64,000 nt of DNA from Eunapius fragilis (lineage: Eukaryota; Porifera; Demospongiae; Spongillida; Spongillidae): contig OY811974.1 of the NCBI GenBank assembly GCA_963681505.1, positions 10,531,961-10,595,960 of the forward strand, given 5' to 3'. The notes beneath the pieces are model-generated. The model did no database searches. It saw only the letters and a program-made list of their open reading frames with translations, and was not told the origin of the DNA. Shown one piece after another: positions 48,731-56,110 of this stretch (position 1 is the stretch's first letter; each line of letters opens with the position of its first letter). The position numbers and the translations under genes are program-made.

Positions 48731-50890
48731 TACGCGTAATAAAATCATTGTACAGGAAGTCTATGGGTAATTTCTATCAATCGCGCACAGTTTAGTACCA
48801 CAGACTTGTAGTAAAGTTTATAAACCCTACTACGATACAGGGACAAATAACACATTGTTTGTATATCTTCTGTTCTGTAAAAATTTGCCCTCTTCAATTT
48901 CAAAACCGGTTTTGTTTTACTGCATACATTTAATGGCTGGCATACTTTTGATCACTTTTTTCCCTTTCCTATTTTACCGCGTGACGATCTATTGCAGATT
49001 ATAAAGTGAATTCTGAAGACAAAGTTATTTGCATATTTATATGTTCAAATAGCATATCTACCCCATGTGCACGTCTATTTCTAGATTCAAGTATGTGAAT
49101 TGTAGTACCCCGTTCAAGCCATAAATTATTAAAATTGATTTAAACGTCATGACGTTGCCCTCTACCCGGCCAACTCTGAGACATGGCAGCATACATGCAC
49201 GACCCCGGTCGTGTGTCCGTGGAGTATGTTGGAACGATGTTTCCTAGCTTGGTACGTTTTTTTACGATAAGCTATAATATTAGTTAAAACTCAGCAACAG
49301 CCATCACCAAACAGCGAGACTAGGTTTTTTTTACGCAAAGTATAGGGTATACGTTATAACTGAAAGCTATGCAGCCTTCTCTGTAAAGATCACTCGCGTG
49401 CGTAGGATTTTGATCAAAACACGAAGTGTGCAAGCAACTTCCCACCGCACGTACGATCCATATGAATAGGGAAGTCCTAGCTGCTAGAACGCCACAGTGC
49501 ACCACACGCATCAACGCATAATTCCCACAAACGCGAAATGTAAGGCAACTCTTGTGCGATCGCGTGTCATAGGTTGTGCCTTCATAGTTGTACCACAATA
49601 TCTCAGCGAAGAACGCGCTTGTTTATGTGCCGATCGCGAGTCGATGGTGCATGGTTTCCTTCTCAGCACATACAACTCACTGCCCGATGGTGGAGTCACC
49701 AAGATTACATTATATTTATGGTACAGCACACGGCTGTTCCGTACGTGACAATAGGTTTTGAAATTAGATCGTAAGGATTGAATTACGGTATGTCTAAAAA
49801 AATGGCCGCCATAGAGCTCACTTAACTTCGGAGATTGCCTGCACTTGGCCTTTGGTACCAATGCGAAACCCAATAAGGAATTTATGTTTAGTAAACATCT
49901 AAAATATTTAAGGACTATTTGCGCAATCGAATACTATTACGACTACGATTTACTTGTGGCCACGCATACAGGCTCTTCTCAACACAACTAAAAATGCCAA
50001 GAGTTCGATTTCATACTGTAAAAAATTGCTCTTATTAAATGAGCTGTAAAATGCTCAGAAGAAAGAGAAAGGATCAATGAATCATTTGATGAATTCGGCA
50101 TCGTGCTACGCGCCTGCAAACTAGGCGTAAGAGCTCTTACAAAACCGTGAATAATTTACACACCGCGAGCAATCTACAGCCACAATGGAACCTAAGCACA
50201 AGTGTCAATTGGATGATTTGAGCTGGTTATGTGGTTGTAGGCCATCAAAACAAGCAACAATTCATAAAGAGCTACTGTCAACCTTTTATAATGACACACA
50301 AAAAGACAGTCCTGAGATCCTACAGCCATGCAAGTTATTCACGTTCAAGTGCTGATGAAGCATGTAACAGTTGCGTCACGAAGCCAAACACTTTTACAAC
50401 CACATGATTGGTGCAACTATGCCATCAGTACCTGTAAGGTAGTGTGCAATTTAAAAAAAGTTCTTTCACAATTCAGTCCTTCCTCCTTCACCATAAAGTA
50501 CGTGGTGTCCCCTTTTACGTGGCTCAATGGTGCAAACCTGAAGCATGTGGCAGTACCCAGGCCAGGCCAGTTGATACTGTACAACATATAGCACCACATA
50601 CAAAATTGTCATTTACACAGACAACCAATCCAATTCCCCTGCAACAGGTTTCTATGTGCCACATGCCTTCCATTTGACTGCTGCATTGTGTCATTGTACA
50701 ACATTACACTGAACAGCAAGAATCTTCAAGAATAATTAGATACTCCTGCATGATGGGGTGGTGTGTTGCAGGTCATGTGACAGAAGCCTCAAAGCTATCT
50801 AATATGTTGTACTGATGTAACCAGCCAAGAGAGGCAACTTGTCAGCAAGGTAGTGCAAAGGGTATTTGATACTTCCAAGGAGAGCTTCAT
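48711..50890. other. No gene recognised; left part of the 10.4-kb interruption
   Basis: Unique-looking sequence with only short frames; a 57-codon plus-strand frame begins at 50184 (MEPKHKCQLDDLSWLCGC) but nothing supports it. It separates the front half of copy 3 from the P-type transposon. Confidence 0.5.
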
Positions 50891-50919
50891 CAGAGATAAT
50901 ATATAGAGGGATTGGAAAC
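50891..50919 (+). repeat. Left terminal inverted repeat of P-type element
   Basis: 29 bp: cagagataatatatagaggg then attggaaac. One mismatch to the right repeat (g versus a at base 16). Preceded by gcttcat. Confidence 0.9.
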
Positions 50920-51029
50920 GAGGCCAATCAACACTAATTAACGCGCGCAATCCTCGAACGAATCCTTACAAGCGGTACGAATACATGTGTAGCACTTAGA
51001 ATTTTTTTACAACAGACACATAATATGGA

Positions 51030-54000
51030 CTAAATCGTTTTTCTCAAGCCTTTAGATTTCTGTGTGGTTTTTTGCTGGGCAACCTTCATCTTTTCTACCC
51101 ACGCACTGGCATAAGAAAAACCACGAACTGTGATCCACATTTTAGCTATCTTCTTAAGCAGTGCAGTGCTGCAATCACTGTCCCAAGAAACGCTGATTAT
51201 GGACCATAAAAAGAGAACGTCCTCACTTTCAGTTATCTGTACTACTACTTCATCCCCCAAGTGTGTTGGTTTGATCTTAAGATGGGAACGCAGCTCTAGC
51301 TCCATACTTAAAAACAGCTCGAAGGTCATGTCATTCACACATACCAGCCCACCACGGTTTAAGCTGTTAACCCAATCACTGGATGAAAGCCCTGCATCTC
51401 CATCACCAGATATAAGTTCATCCAGGCACAGGATACAATCTTTGTTAAGTGGGTTATCTGACTTCTTTTTCTTCTGTAGCTTTTTCTTAATAGCTCTGGG
51501 AACAAACCCAGCAGCATACCGAATACCATTCAGTTCTTCGTAGGTTAGGTTCATCTCTATATTCAGCTCATCTGGTGATCTGACTGGAAATTGCTCTTTG
51601 ATGAGCTCTTTGAAAGCATTATGCCCAACATACTGAAGAAATATTGGGGATGGAATAGCAATGCTTACACTGGTCTTGATGAATGTATACCATAGACTTT
51701 GGTAAGAATCTGAGGTCCGGATTTGATGGTACTTCTGCCAGATTGAAGGTTTGAACCCTTTCACGCTAGTATGTGATGCTAGGCAACTTGACAACAATTC
51801 CTTCAGTTTATTCTCAAATACTGCAATGTCTGATGAGTGATTGGGTGCCCATTGAAGTAATGATGTAGCTATCTTCAGAGCTAACTGTGCAGGTCTTGTT
51901 GTAAAATAGAAAGACTTTTCTGCTAGAAGTGCTTGGATGCCTTTCATCAGAATGCCATCTAATAATTATGTATGCATAGGAGTACACATTTAGATACATG
52001 TGCATGATTGTAGTATGATACACGTACCTGATGTGTGCATTACTGACGATTCCACCGTTGTCACTTGATTTACACTAGATGGCTTTCTTTTATGACGCAT
52101 AGGCATGGGTTGCTCCATAGGAAGTTCAGTATCACCACCTCGACAGTTTCCTCTTTTTATTCCTTGGCAGAATGAATTAACCACTCTTATAGCTTGGGTA
52201 TTCTTTGCAAACTCAGCAACATTCGGATTGTCGTGCACACCACCTCGTTGCCGCTGTGCCCCAAAAAAACGTTCAAGTGGGTCTTGACACAAACGTTGAC
52301 TCAAAAAGCATTGCACATCAGGAACAGTGAAAAGATACCTCACTAACTCAACAAACGACATGCCTATAGTGGCAAAAAAAAAATGTATACAAGTAACGAG
52401 GGCAAATACTTACATGTAACTTGGAGACCATATAATGTTTCTGCACTAATCAACATGTTGTTCTTCTGAGCCTTTGTAAACCCTTTCCTTAGCTTCACAG
52501 AATTCTCCCAGTCCTTCAAGTACCCTAAAAAGTCAGTCTCCAACCACTGCACAGGGTATAGAGAAGATAATATGTGATGATTATTGTTTTGTATAAAGAA
52601 ATGTACATGTACCTTTAGACGAACATCTGTACTTGAAGTATATGGAAGTTGAAAAGACTTCAAACCTCTGATACCATGTGAAAAGTTGTGGACATTCAAT
52701 GCATCAAAAAATTTGTCAGCCATGTTGACAAAATGAGATGTCTCAGAAGCCTCCTCGCCGCATACTAGAAGTAAACCTTTGGAAACTGTTTCACTTAGAA
52801 CCTACACAAAAAAAATTTATGTGCACATATATGTATAAATACAACACTTGTCAGAGCTTGCCTGTGCAGCTAGATCCACTCTCATTTTTGAGAAAGGTGT
52901 TAGGTGCACATGTTCATATTTGAGCTTTGGTATTATCCTTATGCCCACTCCTGGTGCTGTGTCGGTTTCATAAAGATGTTTGAGATGGTCCCATACTATT
53001 GGTTTTCCATTGCACTATAAAACAAAAAACTTACACTAAATTTTTTTTTTTTGCATTTTTGCTGTGTGTACTGGTCTCATTGCATTGATACTTACCCAGA
53101 GTCTTCTCTTGTACCAACAGTTTCGCATTGTTTTTACCAGATGCGGTGGATCCGATATGAAATAGAGGTGACGCTTGTCTTCAGAAAAAGGGTTATAAAC
53201 CTTATAAACAATGCCAGTTGCATCCGATGCATCCTTGTGCAGTCTCATCAACTTCCTGTTAGGTGAAGCTCCATCCATTGTAACGCCCATTACCTTTGCA
53301 ACAAAAATATAATGAATGGTATTGCAGACTAAACAGACATACATGTACCTTTAGTTCCATATTTTCCAAACGCTGCACAGCTTCCCAGAAGGGATCATAC
53401 ATATGGACACCACTCAGGTCAGTACAAGAAAACTGAACATAGGGAAACTGCAGTTTCGAAAAAATGCCTCGAACCATGAAGACGAGCACTGTCTTAGCAA
53501 GCTGGGGCTGGGTCGGGCCATCTTCCTCAAGTGAATTCTCAAATCTTGAGAGGTGATTGCTGATGTCTCCTAAATCTGTGAACCCAATAAGGTTACCTGA
53601 GTGTTTATCAAACACAAGATCCTGTCGTATGTGCATTTCATCAAGAAGTAAGAAGATGTGCTTCTCCCTCTCAGGACAGCGGTCAGGTTTAACAGCATCA
53701 ATTAACATCTGATCTGCTTCTGAAGAGAAACCCAGTGAGGCCTTTGTATAATGGGTATAGTCTCTCAGTGTCCTTTGTGAGGGCAGCTTTATACATCCAG
53801 ACTCCCGCAAGGCTTCATATGCACCACTCGATCTAAGCAGAGATAATATGAATTCTTATAAAAGCAATAAACAGAGGGAAAAAGTTTTATATACCTATTC
53901 GTACCTGTATCGCAAATAGAGACACCAACGAATCATCAATGGATGCCAGCGCATATTGCGCAAATGAGGTTTAGATGCTGCCTCTGCCTGCTGTTGCCAA

Positions 54001-55261
54001 AACACGTACTGGAATGAATCATGTGGCAGACCTTGAAAGTGAGTAATGGTGTCACTTGATGTTAAGGTATCTCGTATTAAATGATCAGATTCATCATCCA
54101 GTGTTATCCCCACATTCTCTGTTGCAGATGCAATCTTTTCTTTCAGCCTGCTCAGTTGTTGCCCAAGATTGCGATAGTTGTGATGAAGGTCATCTAGCCT
54201 GTGAACTAACTCAGGCAAAGACAGGAATCTGCACAAAACATTAGTTAAGATTAAGCTTAGGTATCTATGTATTTCACAATGTTTCTCACATACCGGTAGT
54301 TTTTGTGCCGAGTCTCAGAGTTTTCAGATTTGCTTCTGATTCTCCATCGTCGAGATCGCAAAGTTGATCGAAAGCTGGAATAAGGAGAACACCGAACTGA
54401 TTTACCAGCAAGGAGAACACAGCAGTCATTGTGTCGAACAGTAGGCTGGTTAGAAATAAGTGAATGATCCAAATATCCTGACCGTTGACCTACATAGGAT
54501 TTAAGGTAGAGGTTTAAACACCAATTACATTGTATGGCTACGCAATTACCTGAACAACCATACAGAGAAAACATTTGTTGGTACCACAGAGTCACAAGAT
54601 CCTGGTCAGGATTGCCTGCACAGAATGTTGTGTGGTCCAACCGTTCAAGAATCTTGAACACATTGTCAATGGAGTTGAGCAGTATTGGTAGTTCACTCAG
54701 CAACACACAATTATGAGTACTAAACTGCCTGTGTGTAGTGTGAACAGACCACTGCATGTCACTGTTGATTACCAGACACATTGCAATTACTGTTGCATGA
54801 TTCCTTTGCTCTATCAACTTCGATATAGAAAAGGACTGGGATCCATCAGATATGATAGGCACCCAGGATGGAGGGAGTGTGACCATTGATATTCTTTCAC
54901 TCAGCATGCTCAATGATTGTACCAAGCCACCAGTGAAATGGAACAAAGGGAAGGAGACACAGAGCGATTTCACTACTGTATGATCTGAAGCTTGATCATG
55001 ACCATGGTCAGGAGCTTTAGAAGGTTGTACAGATATTACCTCTGGAACAGGCAAGGACAAGGTTAGGCCTTCTGTAACAGGCACATATACTTGAGCGCGA
55101 GGAATTGCCACGACCAAACTCCCCCTTTTCTCCGCGTTCTTAATGTGCCGAAGCTTCAATTTTCTTCCGCCCATCACCTTTGAAGAAATGTACAGAACGA
55201 TTGGGACGTGGTTTACCTTTAAAAACATGTGATGGGCACACAACCAACATAGCTCTACCAT
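51030..55261 (-). CDS. P-element-type transposase, 10 exons, about 1217 residues
   Basis: Exons, minus strand: 55261-54550, 54489-54294, 54228-53905, 53832-53349, 53293-53096, 53014-52862, 52801-52613, 52546-52414, 52363-52028, 51958-51030. Introns are 50-81 bp; eight are GT-AG and one (52802-52861) is GC-AG. Exon lengths add up to 3654 bases with every junction in frame. RNase H-like motifs follow the P family. LLLDEMHIRQDLVFDK sits in exon 4 (Asp about 475), after GCIKLPSQRTLRDY. VTMDGASPNRK is in exon 5 (Asp about 579), and an inserted domain follows (YFISDPPHLVKTMRN; KMRVDLAAQ). DPLERFFGAQRQRGG is in exon 9 (Glu about 827). Exon 10 (LNGIRYAAGFVPRAIKKKL) is a long C-terminal part. The enzyme would cut and rejoin the element in the nucleus. 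No THAP finger is seen at the N-terminus; ATG at 55261 follows an in-frame stop, and a later Met (MGGRKLKLRH) is possible. Confidence 0.9.
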
Positions 55262-55725
55262 AATAATATATTAAAACCAGCTACCATCGTAACAAAAAGC
55301 CGTGGCTCCCCCAGAGAGTAAGGGTACCCAAAACATCATAGCGAGGTTTCTGAAGATGCTATACGCAAACAACATAGCGATGGGCACATACTAGACTATG
55401 AGCAGTAAATTCACAAATAATGACGTGGACAGTTTATTTAGATCGACGGATTCTCCCCCCAAAGTAAAAAAATGGCCATTTTTATTTTATTTTTTGGTTA
55501 AACAATGGCGCAAAATCGAATCTATAAGTACTCAATGAATCTTTAGTTGATCGTCTATCGACTACTGTATTTAAACTTGAGAAAGGATGTTTCATTACCT
55601 TGTGACATTCAAGACTTCAATTCAAGCCTACAATTCCGCCCCCTTTTTTGGTCAACGTAGGTGCGATTCACGCGTGCAAGGATAGGGCGCGCTAAAATTG
55701 CTAAAGTATATGGCGCACGTGATTT

Positions 55726-55754
55726 GTTTCCAATCCCTTTATATATTATCTCTG
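55726..55754 (-). repeat. Right terminal inverted repeat of P-type element
   Basis: Reverse complement of 50891-50919 with one mismatch; followed by gcttcat. Confidence 0.9.
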
Positions 55755-56110
55755 GCTTCATTCATATAAATTCTGCTGAAATTCTCCAAATGCCATCAGA
55801 GATGCCATTCACTTAATGATAGTACGTACAGTACACAACACAAGTACCATACAAAAACTTGGTGTGCATACCTGTCTATTTAAGTGGTTGTTTAGGTACT
55901 ACACTTGGTTTAATTGGTTTTGGTGAATGAGTAATACTCTACACCCCCCTAGCCTAAAGCCTGGGAACATCCCAGCACTTCCATTAAACCCCGATCTTAA
56001 AGTCTGGGGACTGAAAAGCCTCACCTCTATTTATTCAACCCAATCTAATAGACTCTGATCCCAAACATATTGACTCCTGATAAGGTTCCAGGTCAAACAT
56101 GTAGAAAAGG
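55755..56110. other. No gene recognised
   Basis: Flank of the transposon; nothing called. Confidence 0.5.

Follow-up and report, generated by a model that had tools for sequence, protein, structure and literature searches.

P elements are a classic eukaryotic transposon, and a P-like element found in a freshwater sponge raises the question of whether its transposase is a single protein, as its predicted ten exons would have it, or whether the C-terminal domain (CTD) encoded by the last exon is a separable part, as related elements with that domain on the opposite strand would suggest. The element, a DNA transposon of the P superfamily, is 4,864 bp long and occupies positions 50891–55754 of the window, that is, of the whole 64,000 nt stretch that was analysed (C4:10531961-10595960, on chromosome 4 of Eunapius fragilis). 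A reading made earlier from this stretch alone (here, the sequence-only reading) had placed it in the P family and in a non-insect invertebrate; the host is a sponge (Porifera, Demospongiae, Spongillidae), and the core Pfam domains and an alignment of the protein to the Drosophila P transposase agree with the family assigned. The assembly, odEunFrag1.1 (GCA_963681505.1), is described in the part of the source available as 23 chromosomes and a 28.5 kb mitochondrial genome (PMC12616128), and the genome searched here comprised 218,937,333 bases in 24 contigs. Mitochondrial COX1, on contig 24, was read with TGA as Trp.

The boundaries are those proposed by the sequence-only reading. Comparison of the ends, and searches of the window and the genome with them, identified 29 bp terminal inverted repeats at 50891–50919 (plus strand) and 55726–55754 (minus strand) that are complementary at 28 of 29 nt, and the 7 bp target-site duplication gcttcat flanks them at 50884–50890 and 55755–55761. 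With up to three mismatches allowed, a 25-base piece of the end matched only the two ends within the window, and 100 shuffled versions produced no match. In the genome the 29 bp end was found 513 times with no more than one mismatch, and the reversed control was not found at all. Among the matches listed, 95 end places on C1–C4 were paired, giving 26 inward-facing pairs less than 10 kb apart, of which nine span 843–894 bp and three span 4,863–4,965 bp; short, internally deleted copies that retain both ends are thus common. Examples are L006, which has a 7 bp duplication, and L007, which does not.

Further copies sharing the same ends are numerous, so that one of the outcomes named by the sequence-only reading as counting against it, the lack of any second copy, did not occur; sites lacking the element were also found. 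Three near-identical copies were located: over approximately 4,860 aligned bases, 12 substitutions separate the window copy from that on C23, 10 from that on C7 and 17 from that on C1 (0.21–0.39 %), in line with the young insertion that had been supposed. The 7 bp duplications differ between the window, C23 and C1 copies and are also present at L043, L045, L046, L049 and L051, but none was found at C7, where the right end is altered, or at L052. With the flanks of the window copy joined across one gcttcat, 40 of the 78 candidate places were scored; 39 of these span the junction with 81–91 % identity, the remaining one being the window's own left flank. All five of the sites that were fetched are unbroken sequence with a single gcttcat, indicating that the element entered a copy of a dispersed repeat and generated an exact 7 bp duplication; these empty sites are paralogous and do not represent an empty allele. 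From these sequence comparisons the window copy is a recent insertion of a cut-and-paste transposon.

The transposase gene lies on the minus strand and runs from 55261 to 51030 in ten exons totalling 3,654 nt including the stop codon, with no internal stops and all nine junctions in phase, so that the exon structure proposed by the sequence-only reading holds. The introns are 50–81 nt long and are GT-AG in eight cases and GC-AG in one, intron 6 (52802–52861), the four near-identical copies all agreeing in this exception. When a spliced aligner was given the hand-assembled protein it returned identical boundaries, which serves as a consistency check only. The exon model has independent support because intron positions 303, 411, 572, 638, 689, 752 and 797 recur in diverged same-strand relatives, though shifted by one or two residues in L046 and L053; position 238 also recurs among the same-strand relatives listed. 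Two members of the window clade were left unassigned, the intron positions of L023 being shifted and the 3′ part of L047 unreliable. Exon 1 (54550–55261) includes an upstream in-frame ATG at 55261, from which the residue numbers used here (274, D475, D579 and E827) are counted, and a conserved ATG at 55174 (M-G-G-R-K), the more likely start; the relative L043 carries stops upstream of its equivalent. A 12 bp piece of the terminal repeat recurs in intron 3, among 13 loci looked at only in the four near-identical copies, and was set aside as family-specific or due to chance.

Three Pfam domains that make up the core of P transposases (PF21787, PF21788 and PF21789) each scored above the curated cut-off in the window protein, no other Pfam domain was reported in it at E≤1, and the Drosophila P transposase was its sole sequence match in the PDB at E≤1. 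The N-terminal part of the RNase H domain is in exon 4 (53349–53832), followed by exon 5 (53096–53293), the GTP-binding insertion domain in exons 6 (52862–53014) and 7 (52613–52801), exon 8 (52414–52546), for which there is the exon model, and the C-terminal part of the RNase H domain in exon 9 (52028–52363), which ends in a basic linker to exon 10. The sequence-only reading had picked out catalytic Asp, Asp and Glu motifs in that order, and these correspond to D475 in LLLDEM (53642–53640, exon 4), D579 in TMDGAS (53275–53273, exon 5) and E827 in DPLERFFG (52274–52272, exon 9). In HMM alignments, D230 and D303 of the Drosophila enzyme (DmTNP) correspond to D475 and D579 via a profile of relatives and E531 corresponds to E827 in a direct match, while SDPPH in exon 5 aligns to the D339(2)H motif. 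The three residues are conserved in 26, 24 and 24, respectively, of 26 aligned loci, a set that includes mutual near copies and predictions with stops or frameshifts. A catalytic D, D, E together with a [C/D](2)H motif is given as the signature of the P superfamily in the part of PMC8230255 available.

Exon 2 (54294–54489) encodes a Cys-x2-Cys motif, and exon 3 (53905–54228) a stretch that looks by eye like a coiled coil and the start of a putative helix-turn-helix (HTH) region. The P-type HTH domain PF12017 matched only the relative L060, scoring 22.5 bits (E 1.5e-4), just short of its cut-off of 23, and was absent from the hits of the window protein at E≤1. The THAP domain PF05485 was likewise absent from those hits, and a comparison of the hit lists by eye, with 150 of 271 THAP candidates scored, showed none next to the PF21787 loci. 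One candidate that was read, on C15, lies near a P-like end, but its frame is outside that end. The element is a member of the P superfamily by its core domains, catalytic signature, CTD and ends, and is neither a THAP-bearing P element or THAP9, as no THAP was found, nor like that of Drosophila in the length of its duplication.

Reading frames are open throughout in the window and C23 copies. The C1 copy has one stop and a frameshift caused by a 1 bp insertion, and the C7 copy a deletion across the intron 4 donor and a further 3 bp deletion. Though the sequence-only reading described the window copy as potentially active and perhaps still mobile, this is doubtful, as codon 274 (54382–54380), within the Cys-x2-Cys motif of exon 2, specifies Tyr in this copy alone and Cys in the other 25 of the 26 aligned loci; Cys is found in all three other close copies, including that on C7, and in all 23 of the more distant aligned loci. 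Since only the window copy departs from an otherwise invariant Cys, its enzyme is probably impaired by Tyr274 and not fully intact.

When the window protein was compared with the loci of its relatives, the homologue of exon 10 was found in many of them on the opposite strand. Pairing core and CTD matches by place used 72 of 102 core matches (those dropped were mostly second or short weak pieces) and 68 of 130 CTD matches. It gave 18 core loci with the CTD on the same strand, one of them (C20:808161) resting on fragments, 22 with it on the opposite strand, and 32 lacking a partner, some of which may have one among the dropped matches. Two loci first counted among the 32, L059 and L060, were found with a profile to have a diverged CTD on the opposite strand. 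In the clade that includes the window element the CTD is the last exon, on the same strand as the core, and in the split elements the CTD gene lies tail-to-tail with the core gene, the stop codons being −36 to 115 bp apart in the six loci L054, L055, L056, L058, L031 and L034 (L030, with an implausible value, and L036, L059 and L060, which could not be placed, are left out of this range). A single pair of terminal repeats encloses both genes in L054, L056, L058, L059 and L060, five of the six split elements examined, and the same five have 7 bp duplications, the boundary being moved by 2 bases in L059 and 6 in L060, and a 9 bp match one base in offering an alternative in L058. The sixth, L055, has weak ends, and no duplication was found there. 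Two split elements on different chromosomes, L056 and L058, align over 4,855 columns with only five substitutions and a single gap, the proteins of their second genes show no difference across 327 residues, and neither core has a stop or frameshift over the aligned stretch; being near-identical with both genes open, they indicate that the split form moved recently as a unit. L057 is a third near copy and is rearranged.

Exon 10 (51030–51958) encodes a helical domain. In structural models made from one fused and one split element, the best match of the CTD in both cases was the C-terminal domain of the Drosophila P transposase, and the part encoded by 51078–51554 superposes on residues 617–734 of 6p5a chain B, a match that was not significant in Foldseek alone. 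Sequence searches were less informative: the P transposase was not recovered when the PDB was searched with the CTD, one search yielding no more than weak matches to RGS10 (E ≥ 0.022), comparison with Pfam gave no convincing family, and no relatives of either the CTD or the core were confirmed in viral contigs. Based on the models, exon 10 is the CTD of the P transposase, an identity that was beyond the reach of the sequence-only reading. Between the same-strand elements of the window and L043 the dN/dS ratio is 0.14 for the CTD, with dS near saturation, and 0.08 for exon 4, and by this comparison of sequences the CTD evolves under constraint.

In the window clade the exon 9–exon 10 fusion is predicted to occur via intron 9 (51959–52027, phase 1). 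A phase 1 donor after Ser-Gly and a phase 1 acceptor just before the CTD are shared by the window element, L049/L050, L051 and L053, and in L042/L043 both occupy the equivalent position, following an exon 9 frameshift, these being the subfamilies that can be read there (L045 and L046 cannot).

On balance, the element is very probably a young cut-and-paste transposon of the P superfamily, with the CTD fused to the core here and the two split as convergent genes in relatives. The protein would bind the terminal repeats via the HTH and zinc-motif region, which is proposed because no THAP domain was found; cutting would be by the RNase H domain with its GTP-binding insertion, and the CTD would hold the cut strand and the target DNA, as in Drosophila. 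The window clade would join the CTD to the core through the predicted intron 9, and in the split relatives the CTD would join the enzyme in trans from its own convergent gene, which is plausible because in the Drosophila complex the CTD is tethered by a disordered linker and packs against another subunit. From the gene arrangement, the transposase of the split elements is most likely a two-subunit enzyme with the CTD joining in trans.

It might be argued that this is an ordinary inactive P element, that a CTD on the same strand is simply the usual P layout and that the split elements are damaged inversions. Indeed, the CTD lies within one protein in the Drosophila P transposase (PMC7776569, in the part available), the window copy lacks an otherwise invariant Cys, the C1 copy carries both a stop codon and a frameshift, and many relatives, both fused and split, have stops or frameshifts. 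Damaged inversions are, however, difficult to reconcile with an opposite-strand CTD at 22 of the 72 typed loci and at L059 and L060, spread across deep branches, with the terminal repeats and 7 bp duplications of five of the six split elements examined, or with the very recent movement of the L056/L058 family with both genes intact, and the mostly synonymous divergence of the CTD between the window element and L043 also counts against this explanation, which is very unlikely. Only slightly less improbable, and still unlikely, is that exon 10 is a second gene on the same strand that is not spliced to the transposase, so that the window element makes two proteins. Related elements do carry the CTD as a separate gene, an unspliced exon 9 would terminate at a stop of its own some 12 codons beyond the donor, and there is an in-frame Met near the start of exon 10 (LLDGILMKG). 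Yet the gap between donor and acceptor is only 69 nt, their place is shared by the subfamilies of the clade that can be read there, with phase 1 and the Ser-Gly donor in the window element, L049/L050, L051 and L053, and in L042/L043 there is no Met at the start of the CTD itself, though there is one upstream within the predicted intron.

How the fused and split forms came about depends on the root of the family. Three trees of the core were built, from 26 loci and a Drosophila segment, from the same set with L059 and L060 added and L041 and L058 removed, and without L041, L058, L047, L033, L023 and L035, and in these the same-strand loci occupy one side of a branch (support 100/98, 100/99 and 100/100). 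The CTD tree was too poorly resolved to decide (fused clade 54/88). The split layout may have arisen once from a fused ancestor, the window clade simply retaining the original state, and this has an appreciable chance of being correct, though somewhat less than even: the unrooted trees put all fused loci in one clade and the split loci across that branch, the canonical P transposase is fused, and with the Drosophila P transposase as outgroup, on long branches, a single split clade was not rejected (p-AU 0.273 and 0.155). Against it, the best trees nest the fused clade within the split loci, and when rooted on L059/L060, a root that is presumed, the remaining split loci as one clade were rejected (p-AU 0.001). 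Introns 303, 411 and 572 also form a nested series: the split loci lack 303 and 411, unless the noisy prediction for L033, which includes a 303, is counted, and only L054, L029 and L033 among them have 572, though serial loss would give the same pattern. With the root unproven, we lean slightly towards re-fusion of a once split enzyme in the window clade.

In the Drosophila melanogaster P element (6p5a, 6pe2) the RNase H domain likewise has the D, D, E residues, a D(2)H motif and a GTP-binding insertion, the CTD is helical with a basic last helix, and the terminal inverted repeats are short; its end also begins with CA, as here. Unlike it, the sponge element has no THAP that could be found, a 7 bp rather than an 8 bp duplication and a protein of approximately 1,190 residues encoded in ten exons, and many of its sponge relatives have the CTD as an opposite-strand gene. 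Galileo, a Drosophila member of the P superfamily, shares the 7 bp duplication, and the strand-symmetrised consensus of 14 duplications from the sponge, G-T-W-N-W-A-C, resembles its GTANTAC, whereas in Galileo the terminal repeats are long and a THAP domain is present (PMC4168063, in part), against repeats of 29 bp and no THAP identified in the sponge element. THAP9 and zebrafish Pdre have the same order of transposase core then CTD (PMC10983969, in part), and Pdre, in another non-insect animal, is mobile and, like the sponge family, has internally deleted copies (PMC7776569); THAP9 and Pdre differ in their THAP domain, 13 bp terminal repeats, 8 bp duplications and single fused protein (PMC7776569). 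In describing intact elements as known chiefly from insects, with THAP9 as the vertebrate case, the sequence-only reading omits the mobile Pdre elements (PMC10983969, PMC7776569).

In the parts of the literature available, P elements and THAP9 are described as one fused THAP-bearing protein, in insects, vertebrates, Ciona and sea urchins (PMC7776569, PMC10983969, PMC4168063). No description of a split P transposase was found in a limited search on sponge P elements and split or two-gene P elements, with most subscription journals and Repbase lying outside it, and the main text of the Ephydatia genome paper contains no word starting with 'transpos' and no 'P element'. The finding of THAP-less split and fused P-type families in one sponge, with recent movement in at least one family of either kind, makes the CTD a separable module. 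The split and fused pairs are thus material for examining the function of the CTD, domain fusion inside transposons and repression by the core alone, a truncated 66 kDa protein being a repressor in Drosophila (PMC7776569, in part). It is about as probable as not, if anything a shade below even, that much of this sponge's complement of P-type transposons uses a two-subunit transposase with the CTD supplied in trans from a convergent gene, and that the window family has re-fused, its CTD gene having been turned round and spliced on as the last exon. If true, evolution would here have taken an enzyme apart and joined it again, a natural experiment.

The P element in the window is housed in a copy of a dispersed repeat, whose sequence flanks the element at window positions 50774-50890 and 55762-55861. 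When the sequences on either side of the element were joined with a single gcttcat, at least 39 further places in the genome matched them, at 81-91 % identity. In intron 3 of the element, a 12-bp stretch (window 53838-53849) matches the terminal repeat without a mismatch; this stretch lies directly ahead of the splice acceptor and, among the 13 loci compared, is confined to the four near-identical copies.

Elsewhere in the window, a block of approximately 8 kb is repeated in tandem (27728-47983) as two long copies and a third, partial one that share 86-98 % identity, and the block has tandem arrays of its own, with units of 13 bp and 23 bp. Broken COX1-like stretches on chromosome 9 (G000 C9:9625139-9626160 and C9:9674219-9675257) are probably nuclear copies of mitochondrial DNA.

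Among the other P-like loci, L057 (G000 C5:3722500-3729000) is a rearranged split element, with the C-terminal domain in a separate gene on the opposite strand, and includes perfect inverted repeats of 130 bp and 69 bp. In L069, a THAP-domain reading frame (1202-1699) adjoins the end of the P-like element but lies outside it; genome-wide, 150 THAP matches were scored among 271 candidates.

The strand-symmetrised consensus of 14 duplications of P-like elements in the Eunapius fragilis genome is G-T-W-N-W-A-C, which is close to the GTANTAC of Galileo (PMC4168063).
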